A DNA stretch of 64,000 nucleotides from Brachycybe producta. Lineage: Eukaryota > Arthropoda > Diplopoda > Playtdesmida > Andrognathidae. The DNA is taken from the NCBI GenBank assembly GCA_036925085.1, contig JAUPFP010000065.1:105001-169000 (forward strand), read 5' to 3'. The notes below the pieces were generated by a model. That model made no database searches. It saw only the letters and a list, made by a program, of their open reading frames with translations, and was not told the origin of the DNA. The position numbers and the translations under genes are program-made. Shown here piece by piece: positions 13,388 through 64,000 of this stretch. Every line of letters begins with the position of its first letter. The first letter of the stretch is position 1.

Positions 13388-13735
13388 CTTTGCAGGGTAG
13401 GGGTGACCACTCTAACAAAGTTGGAGAGATTTTTGCACGAACAGATTCTTATTACTGGTCATTTGTTCCTAGGGCGATTCGACAATGGAACTCGCTTGCC
13501 GGCAATTTTGTGCAGGGAAAATGTATTTTATGGGATTCATAATTTTGTTTTGTTTTGACAATGCATATATTTACAGCATTAAAAAATATTGAAATTGTTG
13601 TTGGGTTTATATCAATGGGGTTTTATATTTTCTGGTTTTGACAATGCATTTTCTATGCTGCACTTGGACTCTTGTCCCTCTGCCATAGGCCTTTATGGCT
13701 GCTTGTAGAGTAATTTTTCAAATCAAAATGAAATC
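13388..13735 (+). mobile_element. 5'-truncated copy of the CR1-like LINE 3' end
   Basis: Plus-strand sequence matches the minus-strand LINE at 14170-14530: GGGTAGGGGTGACCACTCT, the CTTATTACTGGTCATTTG block, and the terminal CTCTGCCATAGGCCTTTATG. It covers only the end of ORF2 and the 3' UTR. With the full element it forms an inverted pair separated by about 430 bp. Confidence 0.85.
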
Positions 13736-14159
13736 AATAGCAGTCAACTGAATCTTCAAGGGTAAATTACTGTATGAAAGTCTGATGTCATAACAGAAGA
13801 CAAAACATCCCCAAAACTGTGTGAGTTTAGAATAAGTGAACTAGCCAACCAATTGGTGATAGAGGGTGAACTCGTCTCGTATCCAAAATCAAGTAGATTC
13901 TATCAAGTCCAAAAATGTCCGTCACACTATTGTAACGAACAACATTCATGGGGTGAATAGAACTGTCCAAAAGTATTGTAGCGCTCTTTCGAGCAATCAG
14001 AAAGTGGTTGGCTAGGCCACTAACTAGTCTGGTTCAGTCTCTCAAGAACCTTTACAGTTTTAAGAATCTTTTGTTGTCTGTTACTCCTCGGGCTTTTGAG
14101 CATTAAAAGCGGCTGGATCGTGTTGTTTTCTGAAGTTTCATCTATGACTGGAGATCCAA
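13736..14159. other. spacer between the inverted LINE ends
   Basis: No gene. A minus-strand segment reads KILKTVKVL and a plus-strand segment LANQL..KSSRFY; similar words occur together on the plus strand at 23440-23640, suggesting a very old shared repeat. Confidence 0.3.
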
Positions 14160-14482
14160 GTTTAATTTGAATTTGAATTTGAAAAATTACTCTGCAAGCA
14201 GCCATAAAGGCCTATGGCAGAGGGACAAGAGTCCAAGTGCAGCATAGAAAATGCATTGTCAAAACCAGAAAATATAAAACCCTATTGATATAAACCCAAC
14301 AACAATTTCAATATTTTTTAATGCTGCAAATATATGCAATGTCAAAACAAAACAAAATTATGACTCCCATAAAATGTTTTTCCTGCACAAAATCCCCAGC
14401 AAGCGAGTTCTATTGTTGAATCGCCCTAGGGACAAATGACCAGTAATAAGAATCTGTTCGTGCAAAAATCTCTCCAACTTTG

Positions 14483-17233
14483 TTAAGAGTGGTCACCCCT
14501 ACCCAAATATAATGCCCTGCAAAGTTTACTTGAAGTAGGTTTAGGGCAAGAGCCTTCTAGCATTCGATTAAAGATATTAAGACTAAAATCTGAACGTCTT
14601 GCAAGTAAACTATCCCAACCAAGCTCTGAAAGCATTTTAGTTACACTGTCGGCATATCCATATTTACCACAAACAAACCTAGCAGCCCTGCATTGGACCA
14701 TTTCTATAGAGTGAGCCAAGTCTTCAGTGTGGGGATTCCACACGGAGCTGCAGTATTCTAGATGGGGACGTACTAATGATTGATATGCTATACATTTTAC
14801 CTCCCTGAGACACCTTTTTAGAATGCATTGACTAAACCTAAGCATCTGCATAGACTTGGAAATAATCTGTTCAACATGCAGCTTCCAAGAAAGTTTAGCT
14901 GTAATCGTTACCCCCAAATATTTATAAGAATCTACGTTATTAAGTGGAATGGCCCCTATTCTATATGGAAATATTATTGAATTCCTTACCCTAGCTACCC
15001 TCATTACACAACATTTTCCCTTATTAAGTTGAAGTTGCCATTTAGAACACCATGCCTCTATTGCTTTCAAGTCATTATCAATAATATGGCAACCATTGTC
15101 AGAGGTAACCTCACGATAAATTATTGTATCATCTGCAAATAGCCGGCAATTGCTGCTAACTTGACTGCTGAGGTCATTGATATATAAAAGAAACAGAAGC
15201 GGACCCAACACACTACCCTGAGGAACCCCTGATGTAACCTCTATCCAGTCAGATTCCGACCCACCTACAACAACCCTTTGTTTCCTGTCACTCAAAAAAG
15301 AATGCACCCATTTATACACCTGTTCACCCAATCCATACCCACTAATTTTTGTCATTAGTTTTGAGTGAGAAACTGTGTCAAATGCCTTGCAGAGATCAAG
15401 AAAAACCAAATCTATCTGACTGCCTTTGTCTAAAATTTTCTGAAGGTCATCAACTATAAGAATAAGCTGGGTTTCACATGAACGCCCCCTAAGAAACCCA
15501 TGCTGGTTATCACACAAAAGATTGTTTTCCATAAGAAATTTCATTGAGGACAAATATATAATATGTTCAAGGACCTTGCAAACTATCGAGTTTAAAGAGA
15601 CGGGTCTGTAATTAGTTACCTGAGACTTGTCTCCTGATTTAAAAATTGGACTAACATTAGCTAATTTCCACATGTCTGGTACAATACCTACATCTAAACT
15701 CTGTTGAAAAATTAACTGAAGGTATGGACCCAACTCTTGTGCAAGATTTTTTAAAATGATAGCATACATCCCATCTGGACTACAGGTTTTATTTGAGTCT
15801 AATTTTAGAAGTTGCTTGACTATTCCATCTGCAGTTATTACAATTTGATCCATACAAAGAGATGTTGAAGGAAAACCCTCATGTGGTATGCCATCATCAA
15901 TTGTGAAGACCTTCTTGTATTGTTCATTTAATAAGGTAGCTTTCCTTACTGGATCTGAAACAAGCTTCCCATTTGTGTCAACCAGAGAAGGAATAGATTT
16001 TCTACTTCGCCTAGAGTTCTTGATGTAACGCCAAAATAGTTTTGGGTGCGTTTTTAACCATTCTCCAAGCGTTTCTGTTTTAAAATTATTGTGAGCTAAC
16101 AAGATTTTCCGTTTCGCTGCTGTGCGTGCAATACGGAATTCATTGGAATTCACTAATTTTGGGTAATTTCTAGCCCTATTCCTCCATAAGCATTGCTTAC
16201 AAAAAGCCCTTTTAATTTTGCTAGTGTACCATACTGGTGTGGCACAGTCTCTAACTACCTTGGTTGGAATAAAGGAGGAAGACCCACTTAAAATTAAACT
16301 ATGAAATTGTGACCAATTCAAATTCACATTTTGAGGATGAAAACATTCTTTAAATTTATGAAAATTATCTATCAAATGTGACTTAAAACCATCCCAATTA
16401 CATTTGTTAAAAAGAAACACTATTTTAACCTCATAAATTTTTTCCACACATGCATTAACATCACATAAGACAATCTGATGATCACTAATTCCCCCTAATA
16501 CCCTAACATTGGATAATAACTCCGGACTATTAGTCAGTACTACATCAAGAATTTTGTCATTTCTGGTTGGTTTAGTTACAACCTGTTCCATAGAATAAGT
16601 ATTCATACTATCTAAAAATGAAACTGCTAATGGCTTGTCACTGCCACTGATCACCGTATGCATTTCCTAGTTGATGTTTGGAAAATTTACATCACCTCCT
16701 AAAATAATCATTGGGCTATGGTATTTACGATGAAGAGTGTCCAAAGAATTTCTTAAACTAGTGACATCTGCTATGGAGGATCCCGGTGGCCGATAGAAAG
16801 AATATAAAAACACCTTTTTACCATTCTTTAGCCTTAAACTACAACATACTATTTCACAGTCTGTTTCAAAACTTGTTTCCCTGCAACTATGAAATATTTG
16901 TGAAATAGCTATGAAAATCCCACTCCCAGAACGACAAACCCTGTCTCTACGGTACACTGTGAAACCATCTGGAAATATTTCTCCATTATTAACAGTATCA
17001 TCAAGCCATGACTCTGTACGAAGAATTATATTGCAACCAGTCTCCTCAACTGCCGCAATGAACTCAGGAACTTTGTTTCGTAGACTCTTACAGTTAACCA
17101 CCATAACCTTTACATGTGAGGGTATAGCTGAAGTGGGTTTTCCTAAATGATTTCCTTCCTGGACAGTGTTTGAAGAAATAATACCTGAAACAAAGGAACT
17201 ATTGCTCCCAGCAACAAGCTGTGGAGCATTCAT
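14483..17233 (-). pseudogene. LINE ORF2: endonuclease and reverse transcriptase
   Basis: Encodes the enzyme that nicks the target and copies the RNA. The first part (17233-16667) is an AP-like endonuclease: VNCKSLRNK, TESWLDD and GGDVNFPNIN are its usual blocks, and GISDHQIV (about residue 58 of the second part) is the SDH motif. A single in-frame TAG at 16667-16669, where related elements have Trp, separates it from the RT part (16663-14483). The RT shows FLDLCKAFDTV (about 421-431), GVPQGSVLGP (479-488) and FADD (509-512), then the CR1-type thumb with RAARFVCGKYGYADSVTKML. The normal C-terminus (NSLP-like block) is out of frame, so the stop at 14483 is premature. Confidence 0.92.
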
Positions 17234-17280
17234 ATTAGTATCAACCCCCCCTAAAGCATTTGCACCTAAACCCCAAAACC

Positions 17281-17936
17281 TTATCCTAAAAAATGCTTAA
17301 CAAAATCACCTATCTTTTTACCCACAATCCTACCAGCCCTATAATTCAAATGAACCCCATCCCAACTCTAGGAACCCCCAAAATTGAGCATAACTGCCCT
17401 CCAGTCTATTACCTGGGCCCCCACCTTACTACATGCTTCAATTAATCTATCATTTACATAATGTGCCTTACGAGTAACTATATCACCCCTATCCCACCTC
17501 TCAGGAATAGCACTAACTTTAACAGTAACTCCAGCCCTACAACATAAAGTATGCTTTACTAAGTCCGCTAGCCCATCTAAAACTTCTCCTCCTCTCCTCC
17601 GCTTTTTTCCCACGTACCATCCTCTTGATACGTTCCTTAACATCTTTAATCTGAGCCCCTGGTAAACAAGCTACACTTACTTTTCCTCTATCTTCACCCA
17701 CCACCCACTTATCAAGCCTTTTGACATTACTATCACCTACAAAAATTACTGATCTGCTCTGCACGCTTTCCAAAATAACCCCACTCTCATTTCTTACCTC
17801 AGCCTTACTGACATTCTTCTTACCCTGTCTAGCATCATTCTTCTTACCCTTACTAATACCTTGCTTCTTACCCTTGCTAACACCCTCCTGAGCTGCATTT
17901 ACATTCCCTACACTTGCTTTCTTAGCTTTCTTGCTT
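17281..17936 (-). pseudogene. LINE ORF1 with SGNH esterase domain
   Basis: ORF1 of CR1-type LINEs often carries an SGNH hydrolase. Here a basic linker (repeated SKGKK) precedes VIFVGDSNVKRL (block I, catalytic Ser in GDS), then an isoleucine/proline block (VSAIPERWDRGD), and after one TAG (17368-17370) the DGVHLN block that supplies the catalytic Asp and His. A frameshift lies at the A-run near 17594-17601. ORF1 ends with TAA at 17281-17283, about 50 bases before the ORF2 start at 17233. The N-terminal part is missing through 5' truncation. Confidence 0.8.
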
Positions 17937-22090: not shown

Positions 22091-22880
22091 ATGGGCTCAA
22101 ACAGCCCACTGGGTGTACTAACTACATTAGTTCATTTTTTCAGCACTAGTCCAGTCACTTCAGTTTGTCAATTTATTAAAAAATGAGCCCGATCAAAAAA
22201 ATGACCTAGCTCAAACAGCCATTTGGGTGTATTAGCTAGCCCAACAGTTTTAGGCCCAGCTCAATTGTCTGTACTATTGCAGTACAAAGTTCAAGGGCCA
22301 CTTTGGGTCCTAAGGAATTGAGCACAATCAAATAATTTACCTGGCTCAAACAGCCAATTGGGTTTACTAGCTAGCCCAATTGTTTTTAGCCCTAGCTCAA
22401 TTGTTTGTACTGCTGCAGTAGAAAATTCAAACGCTGTTTTGGGTGCTAAAAATAGAGCCCAATTAAAAAAATTACCTGGCTCAAACAGCCCATTGAGTGT
22501 ACTAGCTAGCTCAATTGTTTTAGCCCCGACTCAATTGCTTGTACTGCTGCAGTACAAAGTTCAAGGGTCATTTTTGGTCCTAATAAATTGAGCCGAATCA
22601 AAAAAATTACCTGGCTCAAACAGCCCATTGAGTGTACTAGCTAGCCCAATTGTTTTAGCCCTGACTCAATTGCTTGTACTGCTGCAGTACAAAGTTCAAG
22701 GGCCATTTTGGGCCCTAAAAAATTAAGCCCAATCAAAAAAATTACCTGGCTCAAACAGCCCATTAGGTGTACTAGCTAGCCCAATTGTTTTCAGCCCTAG
22801 TTCATTCATCTGTACTGCTGCCTGTGAAGTTTGCAGTACATTTTTCAAGGGCCATTTTACCATGTTAGGAATGTGGCCCA
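22091..22880 (+). repeat. 135-bp tandem repeat, about five and a half copies
   Basis: Units start with ACCTGGCTCAAACAGCC at 22204 (variant), 22339, 22474, 22609 and 22744, exactly 135 bp apart; a partial earlier unit begins near 22091. Each unit contains a short palindrome TTGTACTGCTGCAGTACAA. Copies differ by scattered substitutions; spacing is conserved. It lies just downstream of dispersed repeat copy 1, whose second copy at 38621 lacks it. Confidence 0.92.
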
Positions 22881-29083: not shown

Positions 29084-30111
29084 AAAAAACGGACGGTGGC
29101 TTTAGCGCTGGAGTCAATCCACTCTGCGCCGAAGCCTCCGTGGCATCGCTGTCTGCATCGGAGGAGGTGTCAGAGACCCCAAGTCCATCTTCCTCCCTCC
29201 CGTCACAGGTGGGTACATACGGTTTAAGGTTATCCACGTGAAACCGGTCACGCACCTTCTGACCATACCCATCTACGAACTCTATCTCGTAGACCAGGTC
29301 GGAATACTGCGTGACCACCGTACCCCCCTCAGCTTTATAAGCCAAGCTCCATTTCTTCGCCTGACCGAGCTTCCCAGCCTGATCTCTTATCCACACCTGA
29401 TCCCCAGGCTGATACAGTGGAGACTCCACACGGCCAGCGTCGTACTGCTCTTTCTGCCTTTTCTGAGCAGCCATCAAACGTTGACGAGCCTGCTCTTTCA
29501 CGGCTTGCTGGTCAGGCAAGTCGCGGACTGGACCGTTCGGAAGGAGATTATCAATCTCCAACTGGGGCTCACGGCCAAACAACAACTGATATGGAAAGAC
29601 CTGTGTACTCTCCTGGACAGCTGTGTTATAAGCCCACACGGTGGGCCGTAATTTGTCCCACCAGTCACGCTGTTCCTTGAGGGGATCAAGGTACCGCTTG
29701 ATGGTTTCCATTACGGTTTTGTTCGTACGCTCCGTAAGCCCATTAGCTTGCGGATGGTACGCCGTCGTGAAGTGATGCGCTATGTTATAGCGCTCCCAGA
29801 ACTTCAGCAGGACTTTGCTGGTTTTAACTGGGACCCACGATCCGAGACAAGAGCTTTCGGTGTGCCATACACCGAAAGGATCTCGTCCTTCAGAAATTTC
29901 ACCACACAGGTGTGGCCCTTCGTACTGCCCTTGCCACACCGTACCGGGTGAAATAGTCAACCATGATTAGTACATAGGTGACTCCACCCACAGAGGCAGG
30001 AAACGGTCCAACGAAGTCCATTCCCCAGGTATCAACTGTTACTCCGGCACAATCGGTTGGAGAAACCCCTGGCTTCGAGCGAACTGTCGTGCTCGCTGAC
30101 ACACCAAACAT
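29084..30111 (-). pseudogene. copy B integrase core and C-terminal domain
   Basis: Inserts element cDNA into the genome. First catalytic Asp in TWGMDFVGPFPAS (30111-29899 frame), then a frameshift near 29950, second Asp in VSDRGSQ (about 29850) and Glu in YHPQANGLTERTNKT (open frame 29960-28881). The C-terminal part has the GPY/F-like pattern KKWSLAYKAEGGTV..VYEIEFVDGYGQ..FHVDNLKPYVP. After an acidic Ser/Asp-rich tail the frame runs into the LTR remnant, so the normal pol end is missing. All three DDE residues survive but are in two frames. Confidence 0.9.
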
Positions 30112-31460
30112 GACTTAACATATTCGGTAGTATCCCGCTTCATACCGATCCAGTAGAAGCGCGAGCGGAGTCTCTGGTAGGTCTTAAACATCCCGAAGTG
30201 ACCAGCTTCGGGAATGTCATGTAGCTTTCTTAGACAGAAAGCCCTGCATGACTTCGGAACTACCAGAACAGTTCTCAACCGATCCTGGATGGACCTGATG
30301 GCAAACAACAAGTCATCTGCCACCACAAACTTGAACCGGAGGTTCGAGTTGGGGTCACGGAAGATTTCACTCTTCACTTTGGAGCACCAGCCATCGGCCT
30401 CTTGCTCCTTGACCCAATCCACCTCGGAACGGATGTGGTAAATAACCTCACCTACGTCGGCTTCGACGTATTCAGAGAAGGAAAGGTCCGCCACATCACG
30501 AACAGGATACCGACTCAAAGCGTCGGCATCCACGTGCAGTGTTCGCTTCCTATACTGAACCTTAAACCGGTACTCTTGAAGCTGCATCTGCCAACGCCCC
30601 AACCTGCCTTGCAGGTTTTTGGCTGTCTGCAGATAGCAAAGAGCGTGGTGATCAGTTACGATCACGAACTCCCAGTTAAAGAGGTAAGGACGGAATTTAC
30701 CCACGGCAAACATGACCGCCAAGCACTCCTGTTCGGTGACCGAATACCGTGTTTCCGCTCCTTTCATGAGTCGGCTTGCGTAGGCCAGAACACGGGGGAC
30801 ACTGTCCTCTGGTAACTTCTGGTAAATTACGACTCCCAAGCCGTACCCACTAGCGTCGGTATGGATAATTACCTCACCACGAGGATCGTACATGGTGAGT
30901 ACCGGCGCTTCGGTTAAAAATGCCTTTAACCGAGCAAACGCTAGTTTGCACTGATCTGACCACTCAAAAGATGCATCCTTCTTCGTCAGATTGTGCAAAG
31001 GCCTTGCCACCTTGGCGAAGTCCTTGATGAACCTTCGATAGTAACCGGCAAGTCCGAGAAAACTGCGGACGCCTGTCACCGTCGTCGGGACATCAAACTC
31101 CTGGACTGCCCGCACGAGATCCGGGTCCGGAGCAACTCCCTCGGCACTCACTACGTGACCGAGATAACGTACTTTGTTAAAGCCAAAGAAACATTTCTTC
31201 GGCTGGAGTTTCAGCTCCGCCCCTCGTAACAGTCCAAGGACAGTGGAGAGTCTCTCGAGAAACTGCTTGAAAGTGTTCCCAAAGACGATAATATCGTCCA
31301 GGTACACCAGACAAGTCTCCCACTTATGTCCTGCAAATAAGAGGTCTAACGCTCTCTGCATGGTGGCTGGAACATTACAGAGTCCGAAAGGCATTTTCCG
31401 GAACTCAAACAGACCTTGAGAGCAAATAAATGCCGTCTTCTCAACGTCTGGCTCAGCCAT
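30039..31460 (-). pseudogene. copy B RT (C-terminal half), RNase H and integrase zinc domain
   Basis: 473-residue open frame. RT palm from KMPFGLCNVPATMQ (residues 23-36) and YLDD (53-56), thumb, then RNase H with TDASG (201-205), TEQECLA (242-248) and VTDHHAL (268-274). Integrase HHCC zinc site: H414, H421, C451, C454. The RT N-terminal half including the first catalytic Asp (the TLDLASGYWQ block visible in copy C) has been deleted: the frame before it ends at KIGP and resumes at WQFRMAEP. RT cannot be active despite the long intact frame. Confidence 0.92.
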
Positions 31461-31579
31461 CCGAAATTGCCAACGGGACCAATCTTAAGACACTCTTCGA
31501 GAGTAGGAGCCGTCGCCACATTGAGCACTTGGCGTCCGTTTCCGGACGCCCCTCTCAACTTAGACGAGGACTTCCCTGG

Positions 31580-32943: not shown

Positions 32944-34716
32944 TCAGTTCGGTGGCGACCGGTGGCGGTTTAACGAGGATTTCTCCTCGTCCTCCACGAG
33001 TCGATAGTAGAACTGGCCATCATGAACGGTGGCCAGGTACTTACGACCCTCCAGCCAAACAGGTGCAATGCCAGCGGTTGGCTGGAGGTTCTGACTCTCG
33101 TCAGGTACCATTCTGGCAACTTGCCCTTTGGCCGCAGCCTTCGGACAATCCTTCCTCAGGTGACCCATCTGGTTACACCCGAAACAAGGACCTAGTCACC
33201 AGAGTGAATCTCCTGTACGGTCCGTACTTCGAGGCGTGGCTGCCGGCTGACCTCCACCAGAGCCTGCCGTCTTCTTCTTCTTGCCTCCGGTCTTGGCTCC
33301 TGCTTTGTCCGACTTGGACGGTGCAGCAGCCTTCGCACCCGTTTGGCTCGAAGATGAAGCCTTGGCAGAGCTCCCAGAGCTAGCCGTGGTTCCAGAGGAC
33401 AGAGCGTTAGCCCTGTCCTGGGGAACCTCTCTAGTACGGTTAGGTAATTTACCTACCAGAAGCAAATCGGCTTCAACCAGCCGTGCCTTTCGGGCATATG
33501 CTTCCACCGTACCGGCCTTGCAACCGATCAATTGATCAGTGATGGCCGTCAGGAGTTTCCGTTTGAAGCGAATGAGCCTGCAGCTCTCATCTTCGCCCGG
33601 AGACACTCGGTCGGACAGTTCCAAGAACCGCCAGTAGAATGCCTGCACAGACTCGGTAGCCCCCTGTTTCATCGATTCGAATTCGCCGAAACAGAGGCGA
33701 GCCTGGTTGCTGGTGCTGAAGCGGCTACACATAGCATCCTTCAGCTCAATCCAGGTCAGGTCTGGAAGAGTTTCCACCAAAGTGGCGTAGTACTCCTCTG
33801 CCGGACCGTCCAGCAGAAATGTAAAGAAACTGCATCGGGACTCGTCCGTCCAGTGCTGAGCTCGGGCTTTCGCTTCGAACTTGCAGAGAAAAGGCTTCAA
33901 GTCCTCTCTGCCGTCATAACGAGCAAAGGAGTGGACCGGGTTAAAGAGCCCGAACGCCTGAACCTCCGCTGGAACCGCTGGAGCAGGCGTCCAAGCAGCG
34001 GCACTAACCCTGCGAGGCTGCCTGCTCCGGTTCCCCGAAACGTCAGACACGGACTCAGCTTCCGAGGGGATCATCACCTGAACCCTCGGCTGCTGTCCGG
34101 GTGCAGGAGGAACTCCCCGGCCAATCCCCCGAGGAGATGGCCTGGGTGCTTCCCGCGGAGGTACCAACCGGGGTCGTACCAGTGGTTCCTCCCTCTGTGC
34201 GCCTTCACGCACGGGCGACAGTGAAAACCGAGGTGTCACGCTCGGCTCAACCATGGACCGGGACAGTCGTCCGTCCAAGCGAAGGACATCATCCCGTAGG
34301 CAATCTCAATGAGTTGCTGCTTGGAGAGCCCGGCCAAAAAGGCCCGGCCCTCACGTGCAGTCTCATCTGGAATTTCCACCATGTCCCTACGGGGCTGATC
34401 ACCACGTCCAACTGGACGGGCGACGGTGGAAACTTGGACAGTCGCCCGGGGCCGATCGTTCCTCCCGGTGAGATCACCATCGGACTCACTGTCTTCCAAC
34501 GGGTATTCTCCCGGAAGAACGTCTCGGCGGCGTTTCCGCACTGTGACCCAGTCCTCCGGGGAATCAGCGTCTACGCTACCGCTAGGTTCCTCTGTTTCCA
34601 AAGGATCCCCGCCTCCGCCCCCCAAGGGGACTGTCGACTACGCGGCCACATAACTCTAAACCCGCATCCGCACCAAGTTCCCGACCTCCCGTCGGGACTT
34701 TTGGGGCTGACTCCAT
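32944..34716 (-). pseudogene. copy B gag with CCHC zinc knuckle
   Basis: Structural polyprotein that binds element RNA. The likely ATG is at 34716 (MESAPKVPTGG, matching copy D MEQNPKLPTKG). Frameshifts lie at a G-run near 34620 and near 34278. The main domain (34278-33196) has FARYDGREDLKPFLCKFEAK, WTDESRCSFFTFLLDGPAEE and ESVQAFYWRFLELSDRV, the retrotransposon gag pattern, followed by a Lys/Ser/Ala-rich tail with GGKKKKTAG. After a short out-of-frame gap the zinc knuckle CFGCNQMGHLRKDCP appears (about 33185-33140). Many frame changes; not functional as it stands. Confidence 0.88.
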
Positions 34717-35305
34717 TTTTCACCGTAAATGAACGGTAAAATCTGGACGAAGCCACCAGATATCGGGTTTCCACCATCGAAAACGGTAAACTCACGGACA
34801 AAAGTCTGCAAAATACCGTAACGAACGGATGGAACCGTGCGAAACCGCGGTATCACGGACAAAAGTCCGTGTCCCACAGTAAGGAACGGTCAGAGTTTAC
34901 CTTTACCGGTTTCTACCGTGGTATAACGGACAAGAGTCCGTTTCCCACAGTGTACTTCTTGGTAGAAGACCTTTCACCACTTTCTACCACGGCCCAACGG
35001 ACAAAAGTTCGTACACCACGGTGTACTTGCGGTAAAACACCGTACACCACCGAAAACCACGGTACCACGGACCGTAGTCCGTGCCCCACAGTAATTTGAC
35101 AGGAAATTTACCGTTCACCACGGTACAACGGACCAAAGTCCGTTCCCCACGGTGAGCAACGGTAAATCGACGGTGAACCGGTGGTTTCCGCCGCTGTCTC
35201 ATGGACTAAAGTCCGCGCCCAGTGGCGTACTCACACCGCACGGTGATTCGACCGACTAAACGGTCGAATACACGGTAAATCACCGTGCGAGAGGCGGGGT
35301 ACAGA
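34717..35305 (-). repeat. copy B leader: seven hairpin repeats
   Basis: Between primer site and gag. Seven copies of ACGGACaaaAGTCCGT-like dyads at about 34797, 34855, 34926, 34995, 35066, 35128 and 35203, spaced 58-75 bp. Most are bracketed by CCACGGT/ACCGTGG so that each unit folds as a double-dyad stem. Spacer sequences are diverged while the dyads are kept. Confidence 0.85.
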
Positions 35306-35307
35306 TA

Positions 35308-35323
35308 CCCGGCGCCTCCACCA
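35308..35323 (-). other. copy B primer binding site
   Basis: Reads TGGTGGAGGCGCCGGG on the minus strand, two bases inside the 5' LTR. It is complementary to a tRNA 3' end CCCGGCGCCTCCACCA; metazoan tRNA-Ala ends in CCCGGCACCTCCACCA or close variants. tRNA identity is from family knowledge. Confidence 0.65.
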
Positions 35324-45384: not shown

Positions 45385-47692
45385 GATGAGAGTAGTCGGT
45401 GTGCCATAGCGTACCAGGTGAAGTAGTTCACCATAATCAACACATAGGTGACTTCACCCATGGACGCAGGGAACTGCCCAACAAAGTCCATTCCCCAGGC
45501 ATGAACTGGGTACTCAGGAACTATCGGTTGCAAGAATCCTTGAGCTCTTGTGAACTGTCGTACTCTCTGACACACCAAGCATGACTTAACATACTCCACC
45601 ATGTCACGTTTCATACCTAACCAGTAAAAACGAGTACATAACCGTTGGTATGTCTTGTACACTCCGAAGTGACCAGCTTTGGAGCTATCGTGCAACTTCC
45701 GCAAGCAGAAGGCTTGACACGACCTCGGCACAACCAACACAGTTCTAGTGCGATCCTGAATGGATTTGATGGCATACAACAGTTTGTCTGCCACCACGAA
45801 CTTGAACCTTAAGTTCGAGTCGGGGTCGGTGGAGAGCTCACGCTTCACCTTGTAGCACCAACTATCGTTGGCCTGCTCCATTACCCAATCCACCTCAGAC
45901 CGGATCCGGTAAATCACCTCACCCACGTTGGCTTCGACGTGTTCAGGCAACGAAGGATCGACAACTTCATTCACCAGATACCGACTCAAACAGTTCTAGT
46001 GCGATCCTGTATGGATTTGATGGCATACAACAACTTGTTGGCCACCACAAACTTCAACCGAAAGGTTCGAGTCGGGGTTGGTGAAGAGCTCAAGCCTCAC
46101 CTTGAAGCACCAATTGTCATTGGCCTGCTCCATAACCCAATCCACCTCGGACCAGACCCGGTAAATTACCTCACCCACATCAGCCTCAACATGTTCAGGC
46201 AAAGAAGGATCGTCAACTTCATCTACTGGATACCGACTCAAACAGTCGGCATCCTCATGGAGTTTCCCCTTCTTGAACTGAATCTTATACCGGTACTCCT
46301 GCAACTGCATTTGCCAATACCCCAACCTGCCCTGCAGGTTTTTGGCAGTCTGCAAATGACAGAGCGCATGGTGATCAGTTACGATCACAAAGTTCCGGTT
46401 AAAGATGTAAGGTCAAAATTTACCCACGGCAAACATGATCGCCAAGCACTAATGCTTGGTGACACTATATCGTGTTTCCGGTCTCTTCATGAGATAGCTA
46501 GCGTAGGCCAGAACCCGAGGAGCCTTGTCCTCAGGTAACTTCTGGTACACTATGACACCTGGACCGTACCCACTCGCATCGGTGTGAATTAATACCTCAC
46601 CATGTGGATCATACATCATGGTGAGCACCGGTGCTTCGGGTAAAAATGCCTTTAACCACTCGAATGCTAGACCACACTGCTCTGGCCAGTCAAAAGACGC
46701 ATCCTTCCTGGTCAGATCACGCAGTGGTCTTGCGACCTTGGCGAAGTCTTTAATGAACCTACAGTAGAAGCCGGCCAGTCCAAGAAAACTTTGGGCGGCA
46801 GTCACCATTGTAGGAACATTGAACTCTTCGACTACTCTCATGAGTCTCGGGTCGGCAGCAACTCCCTCAGCACTGACCATGTGACCGAGATATTTGACCT
46901 TGTCAAAACCGAAGAAACATTTCTTCGGCTGGAGTTTCAGCACCGCCCCTCGTAACAGTCTCAGGACAGTACTTAAGCATTCAAGAAACTGCTCAAAGGT
47001 GCTCAAAGATATCATCTAGGTACAGGAAGCAGCTCTCCCACTTATGTCTCGTCAACAAGAGGTCTAACGCTTTTTGCATTGTGGCAGGAGCATTGCAGAT
47101 TCCGAAAGGTATTTCTGAAACTCAAACAGACCTTGAGAGCAAATGAATGCTGTCTTCTCAATGTCCTGCTCCGCCATCCTGACCTGCCAGTAACCACTAG
47201 CGAGGTCCAGGGTTGCAAAATACTTTGCTCCAGCTAGCATATCGAGGGCATCATCGATGCGAGGTAGCGGGTACTAATCCGCCTTTGTCTGGGCGTTCAG
47301 TCTCCGATAGTCCACACAGAAACGAAAGCCACCATCCTTCTTGCGAACAAGTAGGATAGGGCTCGCGTAGGGACTATGTGAAGGTTGGATTACCCCTGCA
47401 TCCAACATCTTTGCTACCTCTTCTCGCTTGATCGCATGAGCCGCCGGAGCGGTTCTTCACAATCCTTCTCACACATGAGGTAACCCACCGGTATAAATTG
47501 TATGTTCGAAGAGCGGGGTTTCCCCAGCTCTGTGTAATCGAACACGAAATGATCTCGGCATTCCAGCAGGAACTCCTGAAGCTGTGCCACCTCTTCAGGC
47601 TTCAGACCAGGTCCGATTTTAAGGCACACTTTGAGAGGGGGTTTAACTTCCTCATTGAGGACCCGGCAACCTTTACCTGTAGCCCCTCTCAA
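45321..47692 (-). pseudogene. copy C RT, RNase H and integrase zinc domain
   Basis: Starts with a linker (KIGPGLKPEEVAQLQEFLLE), then a decayed RT N-terminus around 47414-47160 (SPYASPI, VDYR, LPRIDDALDMLAGAKYFATL readable across frames), the palm and thumb (47015-46449: PKKCFFGFDKVKYLGHMVSA), RNase H (HTDASGYG near 46590, VTDHHALCHLQTA near 46380), and the integrase HHCC site (LHDSSKAGHFGVYKTYQRL, CLVCQ). Contains a 251-bp tandem duplication between RNase H and the zinc domain. Frameshifts in every domain. Confidence 0.9.
45741..46242 (-). repeat. 251-bp tandem duplication within copy C pol
   Basis: 45741-45991 and 45992-46242 both run from AGTTCTAGTGCGATCCTG to CCGACTCAAAC. They encode the same segment (SRYPVDEVDDPSLPEHVEAD ... 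AIKSIQDRTRT) but differ at many positions, clearly more than recent copies would. Confidence 0.88.
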
Positions 47693-48788
47693 CTTAGGTG
47701 GAAGCCCCCATGGGTGGCCATCTCCATGAGTGGGTTCTCCCGTCTCAACGTAGATGGACCATCCAGTCCCATCACTAGGGCTGCCTCCACAGCTTGAGCT
47801 ATCACCACACCCTCCCCTATTTCTAGGGCAATGGGTACATCAGCGACATTCTCAAGCCAGATGTTGTAAGTGCCTGGGTCTGTGGCTTCGGCAATACCTG
47901 CCACCGCCAACAGACCACGACCGCCCAAGGCTTTCTGATGGGGCTCTATGAGAAGCAGCTGACCAGGGCCAGCATGCTCTACCAAGCTCACGGAAACTAC
48001 CTTCTGCACATGAGCTGGTAGCCATATGTTTTCCAACAGTCGCAGGAAACAACTTCCCCGCTCCTAATTGGAGAACTGGTCTCGGCGAGTGCGGGTGACA
48101 CAATGTCGTCCCACCCATCCACTTTTTCAGGATCTGCAGGCATACCTTCCGGTATCCCAAAAGGAGGGAGTAGCAGAGGCTCCACAGAATCGTGAAGCTT
48201 CGCCAGCACCTCCAACAACGAGTTCGGAAGTTGTACCGAAGTACCCTGCAAAGCCTGAACGGCCAGTGCGGCATGAAGAGCATCTGGATGTGCGGTACAA
48301 ATGTCTTCCCGGAAATATATTTTCCAGCTCACGACGTCCAACATTAACCCAAACCGAGAAGCCAGGTCAACACCTATGATGGCTTCTCCTTCACCCTCAC
48401 TGAGGAGAAGTTGGGTTCGTATGGACCTTCTGTGGATTGACATGTCCACATACGTGACTCCTATCTCTATGGAGTACCTGCTCATGCCCATCAGGTATGA
48501 GGGGAGGTTAACCTCTTGCACCGGTAACCCCATCTCCGGTGCCAGTTTAACGATGGCACACAATCGTTTCTGGCAACAGGTAGGACAGGTGGACAGATAC
48601 TCATGGTCCTGCCATACTATGGGTACAAGACCCGTGCTACACGGCACCACCTGGCTTCTGCCAGGTGTGACCCTAGCAACCTGTCTTTGGGCCGTAGCCT
48701 TTGGACAATCCTTCTTCAAGTGACCCATTTGGTCGCACTTGTAGCAAAGACCTAGTTGCTTCCGGGTGGGACATCCACCTCCAGCCAT
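47690..48788 (-). pseudogene. copy C zinc knuckle and protease region, active site deleted
   Basis: Frame 48788-47997 opens with the knuckle CYKCDQMGHLKKDCP, then HEYLSTCPTCCQKRLCAIVK, then the protease from EMGLPVQEVNLPSYLMGMSR and AIIGVDLASRFGLML. The segment holding DTGAxVSVLS in copies B and D is absent: deletion joins the pre-protease linker to the region just after the active site. Last part 48036-47689 continues as the pre-RT linker. Inactive protease. Confidence 0.88.
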
Positions 48789-50390
48789 TTAGCCAACCCC
48801 AGACAGTGCTACTGTGGACTTATTTCCACCCTGGCTCTGCCACCTAGTTTTATTACCGTTCTTTCCTCCGGTCTTGGCAGTCGCTCCATCTGCGTGGGAT
48901 GGAGCAGTCGCCTTCGCACCCGAAGGGTTGGAGTAAGACATAGCAGAGCCTTTGGGCTGTGCCACAGCACCAGAGGCCTTGACCGTAGTCTTGGTCTCTG
49001 GTACGGTCAAGGTATGGGCAGGCAACTCACCCGCTGTCAGCATGTCGGCCTCGACCAACATTGCCTCAGCGGTGAATGAACTCACCGTTTTGGCCTTCGA
49101 TCCCCAGAGCGGTCTGAGGATCGCCGGCTGCAGTTTTTTTTTAAATCGGAGGAGTCAACAGGACTCATCCTCATTAAGAGAAACTCGTTCTGCTAGCTCA
49201 GTAAAGCGCCAATAGAATGCCTGGAGTGAATTGGTCGGCCCCTGCACCATTGTTTTGAACAGATTGAAACAGGCCTGAGCCTGATTCTTGGTCCCGAAAT
49301 GCTGGAACATGGCCTCCTTTAGCTCTGGTCAGGTCAGGTCTGGCTGAAACTCCACCAAACTGGCGTAGTATTCTTCAGTCGGGCCGTCGAGCAGGTGCAT
49401 AAAGCTGTACCTGGCCTCGTCCGTCCAGCGCTGAGCCCTAGCCTTGGCTTCGAACTGTCAGAGAAAAGGCGTCATGTCCTCCCGTCCATCATACCGAATA
49501 AACGAGTGGACTGGGCTGAAAAACCCGAACGCCTGGATCTCCGACGGGACGGCCGGAGCAGACGTCCATGGTGTGATACTTACCAGTCCTAAGTGCGCTG
49601 CACCGGTTTCCCAAAGTCTCAGCATAAGGCTCAGCATCCGAGGGTTCCACCAGGTGGACCCTCGGTTGCTGAACGGCCGGAGAAACTCCCTGACCAACTC
49701 CCGCAGGAGCGGTCCAAGTTCCTCCAGGAGGTATCCGCCCGGACGAAACCTGCGGCACCTTCCTCCATACACCTCCCAGGTGCACAGGCAACAGTGTGAA
49801 CTGCGGTTGCACTTCCTGGATCCAATGGATCCCCTGGGGCAGACGTCCCTGCAACCGCAGGACATCAATCCCCCTGGCAACAGCAAGGAGTTGTTCCTCA
49901 GACATTGAGGTCAAAAATGACTCTGTGCCCTGCGGACTACCCAACAGAGTCCCCACCGCCTCACTTAAGAGTCCCCCACCGTGTCCAACTGGACTGGTGG
50001 CAGTGAAGGCCAGGACACCGGCCAAAGGCCGCGTGCCTGTCTCTGCTGGGGTCCTCACAACCCCTTCACCACCATCCAACAGTGTTCCATCGGAGACAAT
50101 GCCTCCACGGTGTGATTGCACCATTACAAAGTCTCCATACGGAGGTTCGGTCCGTAGGGGCACCCCCTATGGCACCTTTGTCTCCAGAACCCTCATGTTC
50201 GTTCCCGCTAACAACAACCAAACCCGGTTGCTGCCCCGCTGGCTGAATACCATGGCCAAAGGTGCGGGAACGCAACTCCAATCCCTAGCGTACACCGTTA
50301 CCCCAACCTACCATCGGGGAATACGGGGTTCAAGCCAATTTCCACCATGCGAACACGCGCAGAAACGGCCACCAATTGTAGGTGAGAGAA
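48789..50390 (-). pseudogene. copy C gag
   Basis: Frames 50163-49489 and 49886-49458 carry the N-terminal half (SEEQLLAVARGIDVLRLQGR; FGFFSPVHSFIRYDGREDM), which aligns with copy B and D gag. The gag core at 49440-49140 is readable only across stops. The C-terminal basic Gly/Lys/Ser region is at 49085-48789. The start codon is unclear; about 50280 is possible. Confidence 0.75.
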
Positions 50391-50394
50391 TCTA

Positions 50395-51425
50395 CCGTGA
50401 AATCCGGTGAATTCACAGACCAAAGTCCAGAAATCACCGTCAAACAACAGTAGAACCGTACCAAACCAAAGTTTCACAGACAAATGTCCGTGTCCCACGG
50501 TAACTGTATGGTTAGAGTCTCTTTTCACCATCTTCGAACAGAGATTCACAGACAATGGTCTGTAAACCACTGTCTACTAGCGGTGAAACTACCTTTTTAC
50601 CGTGTTCGCCCGGTGATGCATGGACAAAAGTCCGCAATACATCGTCAAACACCGGTAAAACCGTAAACAACCACAGTATCACGGACAACGGTCCGTGTCC
50701 CACGGTTAGATTTATGGTTGGAGTAGCTTTCACTGTCCTCGAACGGAGATACACCGACAACGGTCCGTAATCTATCGTCCACCAACGGTGAAACTCCCTT
50801 TTTACCGTGTTTGAACGGCGATACACGGACAAAAATACGTATTCCACCGTCTACTAACGGTAAAATTAACTTTTCACCATGTTCGACCGGTGATACATGA
50901 ACAAAAGTCCACAATCCTCCATCTACTAACGGTAAAATAGCCTTATTACTGTGTTCTACCAGTCCTGCACGGTCAACCACCGGGCCCACTGTCCTACTTA
51001 CAGATAACCTAGGGCTTTCTCCGGTAACCACCGCAGTATCACGGACAAACCGTCTGTGTCCCACGGTCCTTTACCGGACTACTATGCCCTAAGCTGTTTT
51101 CCACCGTAGTACCGTGGACAAACGTCCATGCCCTACAGGTGGACTCACGACTCCGGTTTACCAACCCTGACCGTGAACCGGTTTCTACCGTAGTTCCACG
51201 GACAACGGTCCGTGCCCTACGGTATACTACCGGTAAAGTTGGCCGTAGATTGGGTTCAACCGTAGTCCCACGGACAAATGTCCGTGCCCTACGGTTTACT
51301 ACCGATCTACCGGTAAAGTCGACGGTCAACACTGTTTTCTGCCGCTGTACCATGAACAAAGTCCATGCCCGGCAGCATCAAACAGTTTCACGATCTTTCG
51401 ACCATCAAGAGCAGCAGCGGTGGCA
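50395..51425 (-). repeat. copy C leader: about thirteen hairpin repeats
   Basis: Dyads GGACnnnnGTCC or variants at about 50413, 50475, 50548, 50618, 50683, 50753, 50826, 50897, 51042, 51115, 51197, 51269 and 51353, mostly 63-82 bp apart, bracketed by CCACGGT/ACCGTGG-like sequence. Nearly twice the copy number in B and D. Several units have lost full pairing. Confidence 0.85.
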
Positions 51426-51428
51426 CTA

Positions 51429-51444
51429 CCCGGCACCTCCACCA
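51429..51444 (-). other. copy C primer binding site
   Basis: Minus strand TGGTGGAGGTGCCGGG, two bases inside the LTR, exactly complementary to CCCGGCACCTCCACCA, the usual 3' end of metazoan tRNA-Ala. Confidence 0.7.
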
Positions 51445-57890: not shown

Positions 57891-59650
57891 TCAGTACGGT
57901 GGCGACTGGCGGCGGTTTAACAAAGATGTCTCTTCGTTATCCTCCACAAGTCTATAGTAGAACTGGCCATCGATTACGGTGGCCAGGTACTTTTGACCCT
58001 CCAGCCACACCAGCGCCAAGCCTGGTGTTGGCTGGAGCTTCTGGCTTGCACTAGGCTTCACTACAGCAACATGTCCCTTTGCCGCAGAATCTGGACAGTC
58101 CCGTCTCAGGTGCCCCATTTGGTTGCACCCAAAACACTGGCCAACTCGCCGGAGTGAACCTCCTCATCCATGGTCCGTACCTCGAGGCATTGCCACTGGC
58201 TGACCTCCACTAGAGTTCGCCTACTTCCTACCCTTCTGACCTCCGGTCTTGGCCACCACTTTGTAGGACTTGGACGGTGCAGCGGCCTTCGCACCCGACA
58301 GGTTTGAAGTGGAAGCTTTGGCAGAGCTCCCAGAGCTAGCCGTGGAACCGTAGGACTGGATGTTAGCCCGGTCCTAAAAAACCACTCGAGTACAGGCAGG
58401 TAATCTACCTGCTGTCAGCATATCGGCTTCAACAAGCCGTGCCCTACGGGCAAATGCCTCTACCGTCTCGGCCTGGCAACCGAACATTTGATCGGTGATG
58501 GCCGTCAGGAGCTTCCGTTTGAAACGAATGAGCCGACAGCTCTTGTTTTTTTTGGACACATGCGTTCTGACAGTTCAAAGAACCACCAATAGAATGCTCG
58601 CACAGACTCATGCATCCCCTGCTTCATCGTCTCAAACTCCGAGAAGCAGACACGAGCCTGACTAGAGCTACTCATAGCCTCTTTCAGTTCAGCCGAGGTG
58701 AGATCCGGAAGAGTTTCCACCAACGAGGCATAATACTCCTCCGCTGGACTGTCAAGCAGGTACGTAAAGTAGCTGCACCTGGCCTCATCCGTCCAGCGCT
58801 GAGCCCGAGCCTTCGCTTCAAACTTACGGAGGAAAGGCGCCATATCCTCTCTGCCGACAAATGAGTGGACTGGGTTGAAAAACCCAAACGCCTGAACTTC
58901 CGTAGGAACCGCTGGAGCGGGCGTCCAAGCAGCGGCGCTAACCCTGTGAGGTTGCCTGCTCCGGTTCTCCGAAGTATCAGACATGGATTCAGCCACCGCA
59001 GGTAACGCCATGCGAACCCTCGGTTGCTTTTCGGATGCGGGAGTAATTTCCCGGCCAACTTCACTTGGAATCGGTCGGGTTTCTTCCCGCAGAGGTGTCG
59101 TCCTGGCTTGCTCCGGTGGCACCTCCCTCTGTGCGGTTTCCTGCACGGGCGACAGTGAACACCGTAGAACATCCCTCGGTTCAATCACCGACCGAGACAA
59201 CCGTCTTTTCAATCGAAGGACATCAATCCCGTAGGCAATCTCCACGAGTTGCTGCTCGGAGAGCGTGGCCAAAAAGGCCCATCCTTCCCTTGCAGTCTTG
59301 TGCGGGATTTCCACCAGCTCCCGAAGGAGTTGACCGCCATGTCCAACCGGATGGGCAGCGGTGGAAGCCTGGACAATCGGCCGTGGCCGATCGCCATCCC
59401 CACTGAGATCACTGTCGGATCCACTGTCTTCCAACGGTAATTCTCCGGGGAGAATGTCACGGCGGCATTTCCGCACCGTGACTAATTCCTCCCGGAAATC
59501 ACCGTCCACGCTACCGCTCCGTTCCACTGTTTCCAGTGGTACGCCGCCTTCCGCCCCAAGTGGACGGTCGATGGTGCGTCCACGTAACTCCAACCCCGCG
59601 TCCGTACCGATTTCCCAACCTTTCGTCGGTAATTTCGGATTTTGCTCCAT
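57891..59650 (-). pseudogene. copy D gag with zinc knuckle
   Basis: N-terminus MEQNPKLPTKG at 59650, the best preserved gag start in the window. Open to 58505: LSEQQLVEIAYGIDVLRLKR, then the gag core FVGREDMAPFLRKFEAKARA, RCSYFTYLLDSPAEEYYASL and ESVRAFYWWFFELSERM. A frameshift in the A/T-run near 58550 moves the rest to 58559-58374. The knuckle CFGCNQMGHLRRDCP lies at about 58135-58092, then QYLATV-like FYYRLVEDNEE to 57891. Confidence 0.88.
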
Positions 59651-59654
59651 TTTT

Positions 59655-60265
59655 CACCATGTTTTTACGGTCAAATCCGGCCAAAACCACCAGAACACGA
59701 GATCCCACCGTCGAGAATGGACAATTTACAGACAAAAGTCCGTAAAACACCGTAACGAACGGATGGAACCGTGCGAAACCGCGGTATCACGGGCAAAAGT
59801 CCGTGTCCCACGGTAAAGAACGGTTAGAGCTCTTACCTACCGGTTTCTACCGCGGTCCCACGGACAACGGTCCGTGCCCCACGGTGTACTTCATGGTACG
59901 ACGTCTTTTACCACTTTCTACCGTGGTACCACGGACCAAAGTCAGCACCCCACGGTGTAATTGCAGTAAAAACCTCTCCAATCACTTTCCACCACGGTAC
60001 AACGGACCAATGTCCGAAACCCACGGTGTAGTTACTGTTAATTATGGTTACAAACCTTTGTAACCACGTTCCACCACGGTACAACGGACAAAAGTCCGAA
60101 ACCCACGGTGAAATTACGGTTAACAAGGTCTGCGAGGTTAACCCAATGGTTTCTGCCGCCGTCCCACGGACCAAAGTCCGTGCCCAGCAGCGTACTACCG
60201 TCGCCAAGTGATTTGACTGTCGAAACGGTCAAATCCACGATTTAAAACCGTGCAAGAGGCTGGGT
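59655..60265 (-). repeat. copy D leader: seven hairpin repeats
   Basis: Dyads at about 59732, 59790, 59860, 59932, 60003, 60082 and 60167 (GGACAAAAGTCC, GGACAACGGTCC and variants), spaced 58-85 bp and bracketed by CCACGGT/ACCGTGG. Same number and similar spacing as copy B. Confidence 0.85.
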
Positions 60266-60272
60266 ACGAGTA

Positions 60273-60288
60273 CCCGGCGCCTCCACCA
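60273..60288 (-). other. copy D primer binding site
   Basis: TGGTGGAGGCGCCGGG on the minus strand, same as copy B, two bases inside the LTR. Confidence 0.65.
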
Positions 60289-61252: not shown

Positions 61253-61280
61253 ATCCTCTCAACTTCCCTGATCCGCCCCG
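61253..61280 (-). other. copy E polypurine tract
   Basis: Minus strand CAGGGAAGTTGAGAGGAT immediately before TGTCACGACC of the LTR, where second-strand priming occurs in LTR elements. Confidence 0.7.
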
Positions 61281-61332
61281 CGATCAGGTAGGTCGAGACA
61301 GCAAGGATTGCTCCTGTGACCCCCACTCAGAT

Positions 61333-61842
61333 TCAGGCTGGGTTCCCCGGTGGTGGAGTCGTCGGAGCCACCATCCACTCCGACATCCACTGATGTATCC
61401 ACCATGAACACATCCGGGTGTTGCACCACCTGAAGCCAGGAACGAACTCAGTCCCCCTGAGTCTTGCTACCTCCTGCTGCAGAAACTCATCGATAGCAAG
61501 GGTGTCAAGTTGCAGATCCTGTTGCAGGGTTCGACTTGTCAGAAGGTCCACGAGGGCGGCCACGGGATCGGACTTGCTCCCTCGCAGTGGTTGGGCGACA
61601 AATTCCCCAACCATACGTTCCAAGTCGCAGCCAAGGAGACGCTGAACGTATGGTGTTGCGAGCTGGGCTAGGCATACTAGTCCAGCTCCTGTCCCCACAA
61701 TGTCCAAAATAGCAAAGCGTCTCCTCACCGGGTTGATGACCAGCAACACCGGATAGTCTGTACTGCCAAATGCCAGCACATAACGCATGGCAAATGATGG
61801 CAACAAGAGCTGGGAGTGGCTCTCCCAGGTAATAATACTCAT
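61333..61842 (-). CDS. copy E accessory ORF 3, small globular protein
   Basis: 169 residues, ATG at 61842. Mixed hydrophobic and charged composition typical of a folded protein: MRYVLAFGSTDYPVLLVINP, RRRFAILDIVGTGAGLVCLA, a helical region LVDLLTSRTLQQDLQLDTLA, then a Trp/Cys-rich end RWCNTRMCSWWIHQWMSEWM. No signal peptide or clear membrane anchor. Last ORF before the polypurine tract, 32 bases after ORF 2. No family recognised. The corresponding part of copies B, C and D is deleted, so there is no second copy to compare. Confidence 0.5.
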   Translation of the reverse strand: MSIITWESHSQLLLPSFAMRYVLAFGSTDYPVLLVINPVRRRFAILDIVGTGAGLVCLAQLATPYVQRLLGCDLERMVGEFVAQPLRGSKSDPVAALVDLLTSRTLQQDLQLDTLAIDEFLQQEVARLRGTEFVPGFRWCNTRMCSWWIHQWMSEWMVAPTTPPPGNPA

Positions 61843-61874
61843 AGTATTGGTACCTCTCTTTTCTGCTGGTCCTG

Positions 61875-62207
61875 TCACAGACCAAGCCGGTTATTCAGAA
61901 AGACCTCTCTTTTTGAATACGGAGGCACCGCACCAAAGCGTCGACCCTCGTCCTCAGGCTCGGGAGACCTCGCTCTTTCTTTCGGTCCTAGTGCCGCAAA
62001 GACCCCATCATCGGGATCCGGGGAGAAGGGTGTCCTTCTTACGGAAGGCACGGGACCACGTATGACTTGAACACTAACATTCCCCACCGGGCTGCCCGCA
62101 CTGCTAGGTAACGGTGAGCTGACCCGGTGGAGAGTTTCCACCTTCGGGGAGGATGAAGGTATACCGAGAACAACGTCTCGCATTGACCTATCATCCATCT
62201 GCGCCAT
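61875..62207 (-). CDS. copy E accessory ORF 2, disordered protein
   Basis: ATG at 62207 (MAQMDDRSMRDVVLGIPSSS), about 110 residues, Ser/Pro/Arg-rich, mostly low hydrophobicity, ends NNRLGL. An SP-rich middle could be phosphorylated. It lies in the same frame as the Lys tail of ORF 1, after one TGA, so it may once have been part of a longer protein. Confidence 0.4.
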   Translation of the reverse strand: MAQMDDRSMRDVVLGIPSSSPKVETLHRVSSPLPSSAGSPVGNVSVQVIRGPVPSVRRTPFSPDPDDGVFAALGPKERARSPEPEDEGRRFGAVPPYSKREVFLNNRLGL

Positions 62208-62369
62208 CTTGCTATGACAGGTATGGTGCGGTTGGCTCCCGGCCGACACGGACACACAGTGTTGGGACTCCTCCTCCTCCGTCCCGATACTTCCACCACC
62301 ACCAGTCTCCTGGGACCCACGGGTGGAAGTCTTCAGACCTTCCTTCTTCTCATGTCAGGCCTTCTTGTC

Positions 62370-63460: not shown

Positions 63461-63591
63461 GAATCCACCTGACTGAGTCTGGTACTTGGCACTCTCGTCT
63501 TGCCTTTCCAGACAGGCCACTTCCATCTCCCCAACAGGGTCGAATGGAATTGGGCTGCCCTTCCGGGCTTGAGTACCCTCCTGGAATCCGG

Positions 63592-64000
63592 TCATCGACC
63601 GTTTACCCAAGGGGCCCGATCCTCTTCCTTCAGACTCCAGAAAGTCCTCTGAGGAGAGGTTACTCTGGCCTCTCCAAGAGGACCTAACTTCATACCTAAC
63701 CAGTAGAAACGAGTACGTAACCGTTGGTATGTCTTGTACACTCTAAAGTGACCAGCTTCGGAGCTATCATGCAACTTCTGCAAGCAGAAGGCTTGACACG
63801 ACCTCAGCACCACCAACACAGTTCTCGTACGATCCTGAATGGATTTGATGGCATAAAACAACCTGCCTGCCATCACAAACTTGAACCGTAAGTTCGAGTC
63901 GGGGTCGGTGCGGAGCTCAATCCGCACCTTGGAGCACCAACTGTCATTGGCCTGCTCCTTAACCCAATCCACCTCAAACCGGATCCAGTAAATTACCTCA
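63592..64000 (-). pseudogene. copy E pol: end of RNase H and integrase zinc domain
   Basis: Frame 63972-63592: EVDWVKEQANDSWCSKVRI, then LHDSSEAGHFRVYKTYQRLR and FYWLGMK of the integrase HHCC domain. Directly after GMK the sequence changes to LGPLGEARVTSPQRTF, so the CxxC half, the DDE core and the C-terminal domain are deleted and the frame ends in the pre-accessory region. Confidence 0.85.

Follow-up and report, generated by a model that had tools for sequence, protein, structure and literature searches.

Tandem repeats are found in the 5' untranslated regions (UTRs) of several LTR elements of Drosophila. The 5' UTR of gypsy is described as containing 12 Su(Hw) sites (PMC4276936), that of Tirant as carrying from two to six tandem repeats of 102 bp, with variable copy number (PMC5408687), and tandemly repeated 5' UTRs have been reported for 19 of 49 LTR elements of D. 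melanogaster (PMC8872304). In the accounts on which we draw, the leader repeats of Tirant, ZAM, and accord were studied as DNA, in relation to HP1, RpL22, and the TERM motif. Regarding RNA packaging, a purine loop in the signal of MMTV is reported to be needed by Gag (PMC8096270). The packaging signal of Ty1 is described as a pseudoknot. Retroviral and Ty1 signals are generally not tandem arrays of a single hairpin, and to our knowledge, how animal Ty3/gypsy elements select their own RNA is poorly known. Here, we analyse a window (the whole stretch of 64,000 nucleotides presented above, from a genome assembly of 295 Mb) in which the leaders of three Ty3/gypsy-type elements carry a row of similar hairpins.

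Results

The Elements and Their Surroundings

The three elements, B, C, and D, all lie on the minus strand, as do all of their features given below. A Pfam search with six stop-free ORF pieces from B and D revealed the presence of aspartyl protease, reverse transcriptase (RT), RNase H, and integrase H2C2; Retrotrans_gag was matched in the gag piece of B, and the gag piece of D matched no Pfam family in this search. The pol piece of element B (30039..31484) included part of the RT, RNase H, and integrase H2C2, with RT and RNase H preceding the integrase, which is the order of Ty3/gypsy elements (Metaviridae). Among the best 120 of the 6094 matches to this piece, the nearest named relatives were from orb-weaver spiders, the best named one showing 46% identity. 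In addition, a CCHC zinc knuckle was found in all three elements, that of the Gag of B at approximately 33145..33186 (CFGCNQMGHLRKDC) and the others at approximately 48705..48746 in C (CYKCDQMGHLKKDC) and 58095..58136 in D (CFGCNQMGHLRRDC).

The 5' LTRs of B (end at 35326), C, and D terminate in ACA, after which comes ATTGGTGG, the primer binding site (PBS) beginning at TGG; an LTR ending in ACA and a tRNA-complementary PBS also correspond to Ty3/gypsy elements (Metaviridae). The PBS of B (TGGTGGAGGCGCCGGGTATC, 35304..35323) is a 20-nt complement of a host tRNA-Ala(AGC), including the CCA end, which is absent from the tRNA gene and was assumed for this match; the 20-nt complementarity applies to element B only. 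The corresponding sites lie at 51427..51444 in C (TGGTGGAGGTGCCGGGTA) and 60271..60288 in D (TGGTGGAGGCGCCGGGTA). Among genomic copies (L009 to L087), the PBS varies even within one family, for instance TGGTGGAGGCGCCGGGTA, TGGTGGAGGAGCTGGGCA, and TGGTGGAGATGCCGGGTA, which may be due partly to decay and partly to priming by other tRNAs, tRNA-Ala(AGC) being the only one matched. The gag start codon of B is found at 34714..34716 in the context AAAAATGG, position 34717 thus being the base immediately 5' of this ATG (34716-34714).

Several additional repeats were observed in the window. The pol region of element C contains a tandem duplication of about 252 bp (45739-46246), and a further gypsy-type element, only partly included in the window (61255-64000), seems to adjoin D on the same strand, so that the two may have one LTR in common. 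The segment 20219-20978 shows about 70% identity to the LTR of relatives of element C in the opposite orientation and could be a solo LTR. An inverted repeat of about 1.07 kb (13413-14485), whose arms measure 205 nt (97%) and 109 nt (94%), corresponds to a foldback or terminal-inverted-repeat element and adjoins an ORF for a LINE-like reverse transcriptase (minus strand, 14483-17296). Finally, the stretches 6225-6354 and 6595-6942 comprise an array whose 32-bp unit includes TTAGGGCAAATG and an inverted counterpart of it 442 nt away, and a 135-bp unit is present in 4.8 tandem copies at 22177-22821.

A Row of Hairpins between the PBS and gag

A first-pass annotation of the window, made from the letters alone, had reported arrays of 7, 13, and 7 units between the primer site and gag of B, C, and D, respectively, and the arrays were indeed found at those positions. 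The motif GGACNNNNGTCC (up to one mismatch) appeared 56 times in the window versus 18.3 expected, a number reached in none of 100 shuffles. A covariance model trained on 20 units from three other genomic copies yielded 24 sense matches along the 64 kb at E ≤ 1, all of them within the three leaders (7 in B, 7 in D, and 10 in C) and none elsewhere, and six antisense matches, at the same sites and with lower scores (best 24.5 bits, versus 58.5 in sense). In the sense RNA, each unit consists of a 7-bp outer stem, a 2 × 3 internal loop, a 7-bp inner stem ending in CGGAC/GUCCG, and a 4-nt loop, with 61-84 nt from unit to unit; three of eight units of family D presented an inner stem of 5 bp.

The leader of element B, from the PBS to the gag ATG (34717..35303), contains seven units identified by the covariance model at 35190..35226 (39.3 bits), 35117..35153 (58.5 bits), 35056..35092 (52.6 bits), 34986..35022 (40.6 bits), 34915..34951 (50.8 bits), 34844..34880 (56.3 bits), and 34783..34819 (34.5 bits). 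The leader of C (50315..51426), delimited by a gag start at 50314 that was set by homology to the first conserved ATG of its relatives, contains about 13 units. Ten of them were detected with the covariance model, four in the block 51103..51376 (51341-51376, 51259-51295, 51187-51223, and 51103-51139) and six in the block 50414..51067 (51030-51067, 50815-50850, 50670-50706, 50610-50645, 50538-50573, and 50465-50501), and the other three (cores at 50896-50913, 50752-50769, and 50414-50431) matched the template only and were chosen by eye from a template list that also held spurious rows. In D (59651..60270), six units (60155-60191, 60073-60109, 59991-60027, 59920-59956, 59849-59885, and 59778-59814) and a seventh, weak one (59721-59753, E 0.28) were detected with the model. 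The unit counts of the first-pass annotation therefore agree with ours, with one weak unit in D and three template-only units in C. A perfect core of GGACNNNNGTCC, accompanied by additional nested complementarity, was also observed within the coding sequence of B gag (34261-34272).

Regarding the genome as a whole, one strict form of the unit gave 759 exact matches and its reversed pattern none, the unit pattern had no exact match in a viral contig collection, and a search with the pattern GTTCGANNCCNGGCGCCTCC gave no match. Among the unit matches listed for contig C1 (22 Mb), the first lies at 7.94 Mb; the elements seem to be concentrated in certain regions, which may be heterochromatic. Leader lengths fell into classes of 595-631 and 657-692 nt in family B, with one row of 508 nt (38 rows), and of 611-652 and 706-737 nt in family D (34 rows), the classes differing by about one unit in both families, and ranged from 1092 to 1275 nt in family C (38 rows).

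Compensatory Changes among Units

The first-pass annotation had proposed selection on the RNA structure of the leaders, with packaging, IRES activity, dimerisation, or translational control as possible functions. Folding of whole leaders with RNAalifold gave two-sided changes at 12 of 156 pairs in B, 23 of 155 in D, and 18 of 290 in C, and the folds of B and D mixed different units, since near-identical units can pair with one another across the alignment, the fold of C being cleaner and nested. Because of this mixing, the analysis was carried out at the level of units and branches instead.

Among 20 paralogous units, 19 of them distinct, 94.7% of the cells were paired, versus 88.4% after shuffling, and two-sided changes were detected at 6 of the 14 pairs, a result matched in 5 of 500 shuffles. 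The covariation score was 0.306 versus 0.186 (0 of 500 shuffles). When the partner was slid by one to three columns, pairing fell to 29.1-50.7%, a control that on its own would be biased because the structure was derived from these same families. Compensation is visible in outer-stem variants such as ACCGUGG/CCGUGGU, GCUGCUG/CGGCGGC, ACCGUGG/CUACGGU, and ACGGUAU/UUACCGU. The four tip-most inner pairs showed no variation among units, so covariation cannot be assessed at them.

Substitutions along the Branches of Three Families

Leaders were aligned by sequence alone (40 of family B, 39 of D, and 40 of C, window copies included), trees were built from the alignments, and changes were counted by parsimony. 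The families hold at least these numbers, 40 copies having been scored among 784 (B), 728 (C), and 798 (D) candidates. L053, a duplicate of L052, was excluded, as were 87 of the 1032 unit rows, which had gaps or differed in length, and two C units incompatible with the template. We assumed that changes on internal branches for the most part predate insertion and that those on terminal branches are mainly later. Segmental copying and parallel decay of CpG sites can blur this split, as both can also yield shared changes.

One-sided changes from a paired state kept pairing in 87 cases and broke it in 30 on internal branches, versus 302 and 272 on terminal ones. The contrast was found in family B (30:7 versus 111:111) and family C (32:8 versus 76:62), and it was weaker in family D (25:15 versus 115:99). 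As CpG decay could mimic this pattern, CpG columns were analysed separately, and the contrast was present both outside them (43:12 versus 121:120, p 1.5e-4) and within them (44:18 versus 181:152, p 0.017). Random re-pairing of the same columns gave a mean odds ratio of 1.50 and a maximum of 2.45, compared to 2.58 for the real pairs (0 of 200), which indicates that the raw contrast is partly compositional and that the remainder depends on the true partners. Changes from a broken to a paired state numbered 20 on internal and 19 on terminal branches, a count that includes the two C units excluded later.

Relative to terminal branches, substitutions on internal branches were also rarer in stems than in spacers, with 45/279 internal/terminal substitutions in the inner core and 68/332 in the outer stems, versus 571/1510 in the spacers. 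Tetraloops (60/118) and the outer two pairs of the inner stem (29/64) did not differ significantly from the spacers. Without CpG columns, the outer stems were still slow (25/129, p 3e-4), whereas for the inner stems, the result lost significance and was only suggestive (49/156, p 0.098), so that the conservation of stems relative to spacers stands for the former and is less certain for the latter. Taken together with the compensation among units, these pairing-preserving changes on internal branches, beyond the controls, support well the conclusion that selection acts on the sense-strand RNA structure of the leader, as the first-pass annotation had suggested, and they show that the constraint on the hairpin was maintained while the element was active and was lost on terminal branches. 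Neither of the outcomes that the first-pass annotation had named as refuting its proposal, a lack of compensatory substitutions or a conservation of stems no greater than that of spacers, was observed.

The array could instead have no function and derive from an inverted repeat that formed by chance and then expanded neutrally in tandem, and the leader lengths that lie about one unit apart do suggest gain and loss of units. However, this explanation is extremely improbable in view of the compensation among units and of a contrast between internal and terminal branches that holds after the control for CpG and exceeds the re-pairing null.

A second, smaller hairpin is possible in each spacer. 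In 7 of 20 cases, the spacers folded better than mononucleotide shuffles (p < 0.05), and kept:broken changes were 67:44 on internal versus 108:151 on terminal branches (p 0.0014), with no contrast in family B alone (16:19 versus 44:59).

The 5' side of the internal loop of the unit is mostly GG (334), GA (148), or GT (140), together 622 of 870, which may be compared to the purine loop that MMTV Gag is reported to need (PMC8096270), and a role for this loop in recognition is possible. However, on internal branches, its sites were not detectably slower than the spacers on either the 5' (9/32, p 0.48) or the 3' side (24/83, p 0.32), which weakens the idea that the sequence of the loop is read. 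The same result bears on whether an RNA-binding protein of the host recognises the repeated hairpin, such as a nuclear-export factor of the kind that acts on constitutive transport elements. The structural evidence for such a protein is identical to that for recognition by Gag, and what we computed fits both alike. Nevertheless, the lack of detectable constraint at the loop counts against it, as does an Rfam search over positions 28000-64000 of the window, which yielded three weak matches at E ≤ 1 and none on the leaders, and we regard a host protein as improbable.

The Strand That Folds

The first-pass annotation had described an outer CCACGGT/ACCGTGG dyad in each unit. As a perfect DNA dyad, this was found in only one of the 13 units of B and D considered (59920-59956; the weak seventh unit of D was left out of this count). 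In 10 of the 13 units, the outer stem needs from one to three G-U pairs, and thus it closes in the sense RNA only. Moreover, the two outer arms are nearly the same in direct orientation in seven of the 13 units (differing at no more than one of six positions, and identical in four of the seven), and arms of this kind, such as CCGUGG with CCGUGG, pair only in the sense RNA. Among the majority pair states of the 20 units (280 pairs), there were 29 G-U or U-G pairs, a single A-C, and 10 other mismatches; as the 29 G-U pairs would be A-C mismatches on the opposite strand, this asymmetry identifies the sense strand as the molecule that folds.

Folding energies were in agreement with this. Relative to 60 dinucleotide shuffles for each leader, the z values were -11.3 (B), -11.8 (C), and -5.5 (D) in sense and -8.6, -10.1, and -5.2, respectively, in antisense, thus lower in sense in all three, if only slightly so in D. 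The minimum-energy fold corresponded exactly to the template in 8 of the 20 units and deviated locally in the remainder, with at least one of them (L061:933-969) adopting another register.

These data also bear on the possibility that the units act as DNA, as palindromes bound by a protein of insulators or of heterochromatin, in the manner of gypsy with Su(Hw) or ZAM with HP1. The inner 12-bp GGACNNNNGTCC palindrome is nearly invariant among units, the 5' UTR tandem repeats of Drosophila LTR elements are reported to have DNA-binding roles, and the unit matches listed on contig C1 begin only at 7.94 Mb, all of which would fit with such a role. However, a DNA site does not account for outer stems that, in 10 of 13 units, close only through G-U pairing in the sense RNA, for 29 G-U against one A-C among the majority pairs, or for changes that keep RNA pairing. 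The known motifs were also absent from the leaders. The Su(Hw) motif is YRYTGCATAYYY, and with up to one mismatch, it appeared 13 times in the window versus 12.6 expected, none of them in the leaders; likewise, the TERM motif ATCCATCGCTGAT, with up to three mismatches, was found 18 times versus 13.9 expected, none of them in the leaders. A function as DNA is, in our opinion, very unlikely.

The gag Start Codon and the Leader

The scarcity of start codons was analysed on 38 of 39 (B), 36 of 38 (D), and 39 of 39 (C) fetched copies. No ATG was common to half of the copies in the leader sequences analysed, of about 613 (B), 666 (D), and 902 nt (C), and likewise none was shared over the final 400 nt of the LTR, while other arrangements of A, T, and G gave 3-28 sites common to half of the copies in the same leaders. 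The first conserved AUG past the LTR was that of gag in all three families (38/39, 33/36, and 38/39 rows), in B and D mostly in the context AAAAATGG. On internal branches, ATG was gained less often than the other arrangements were (195:499 for the latter, p 0.0015). However, conserved CAT, the reverse complement, was also rare in the leaders (1, 3, and 3 sites), and new ATGs (39:183 internal:terminal) behaved like new CATs (50:215, p 0.73). A specific avoidance of AUG, strong as it appears in the conserved state, is therefore not supported by the comparison of gains with CAT, and the fit of the leader with scanning is a suggestion.

The hairpins might thus control the translation of gag, with modest hairpins in an AUG-free leader setting scanning, shunting, or internal entry. 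The absence of shared ATGs up to the gag codon and the IRES activity reported for Drosophila gypsy speak for this, but the rarity of CAT and the similar gains of ATG and CAT speak against it, and tandem units are not independent samples. Control of translation as the function of the array consequently seems doubtful to us.

Discussion

The reading that we prefer, with a probability of about 0.4, is that the array serves as a multivalent packaging signal, bound by Gag, on the sense genomic RNA of the element. The row of hairpins forms in the sense, genomic RNA of this Ty3/gypsy-type lineage, and its units would jointly make up the encapsidation signal, each presenting to the Gag of the same element a stem with the invariant CGGAC/GUCCG core and the 2 × 3 internal loop. 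This Gag, through its CCHC zinc knuckle, would read the units and thereby gather full-length RNA into particles. The location of the array between the PBS and gag and the presence of the knuckle in B, C, and D are consistent with packaging. Translation would be compatible with it, since single units, with a mean folding energy of -19.8 kcal/mol, are probably weak enough for ribosomes to melt them one by one; modest and local, they could be opened singly, with initiation at the first conserved AUG, that of gag.

Tentatively, we further propose that the genomic RNA may be recognised through 7 to 13 near-identical and individually dispensable hairpins, so that avidity, and not one psi element, would set packaging. 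The number of units would then be free to differ between copies, and the array would be a natural counterpart to the hairpin arrays that are engineered. Dimerisation through kissing loops was also considered and found unlikely, as the loops are of only 4 nt, variable, and not self-complementary in any of the 14 commonest.

A repeated, covarying, and highly numerous hairpin constitutes a defined RNA motif whose possible part in binding, packaging, or translation can be examined. Its presence further suggests that the 5' UTR tandem repeats of such elements, read as DNA sites in the studies cited, can be RNA structure. The first-pass annotation knew of no gypsy family with such a leader, which needs to be divided into two parts. 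Tandem repeats in leaders of this kind are not new, as gypsy, Tirant, and ZAM have them; in contrast, no array in which a single covarying RNA hairpin is repeated in tandem was found in the open-licence literature searched, which is a weak negative.

Compared to the insulator of Drosophila gypsy, the elements described here are similar in being of Ty3/gypsy type and in having a repeat array in the leader, but the gypsy repeats are reported to bind Su(Hw) as DNA (PMC4276936), whereas the evidence for B, C, and D indicates RNA stems, in leaders devoid of the Su(Hw) motif. Likewise, they share tandem leader repeats with the Drosophila errantiviruses Tirant, ZAM, and accord and differ from them in the absence of TERM from the repeats and in the covarying hairpin, which the accounts available for those elements do not mention. 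Finally, the retroviral and Ty1 packaging signals, as described in the sources used here, are similar in that they form a structured 5' region including the PBS or next to it, and they bind Gag; they are formed by distinct stem-loops or a pseudoknot, whereas B, C, and D carry a tandem array of one hairpin.
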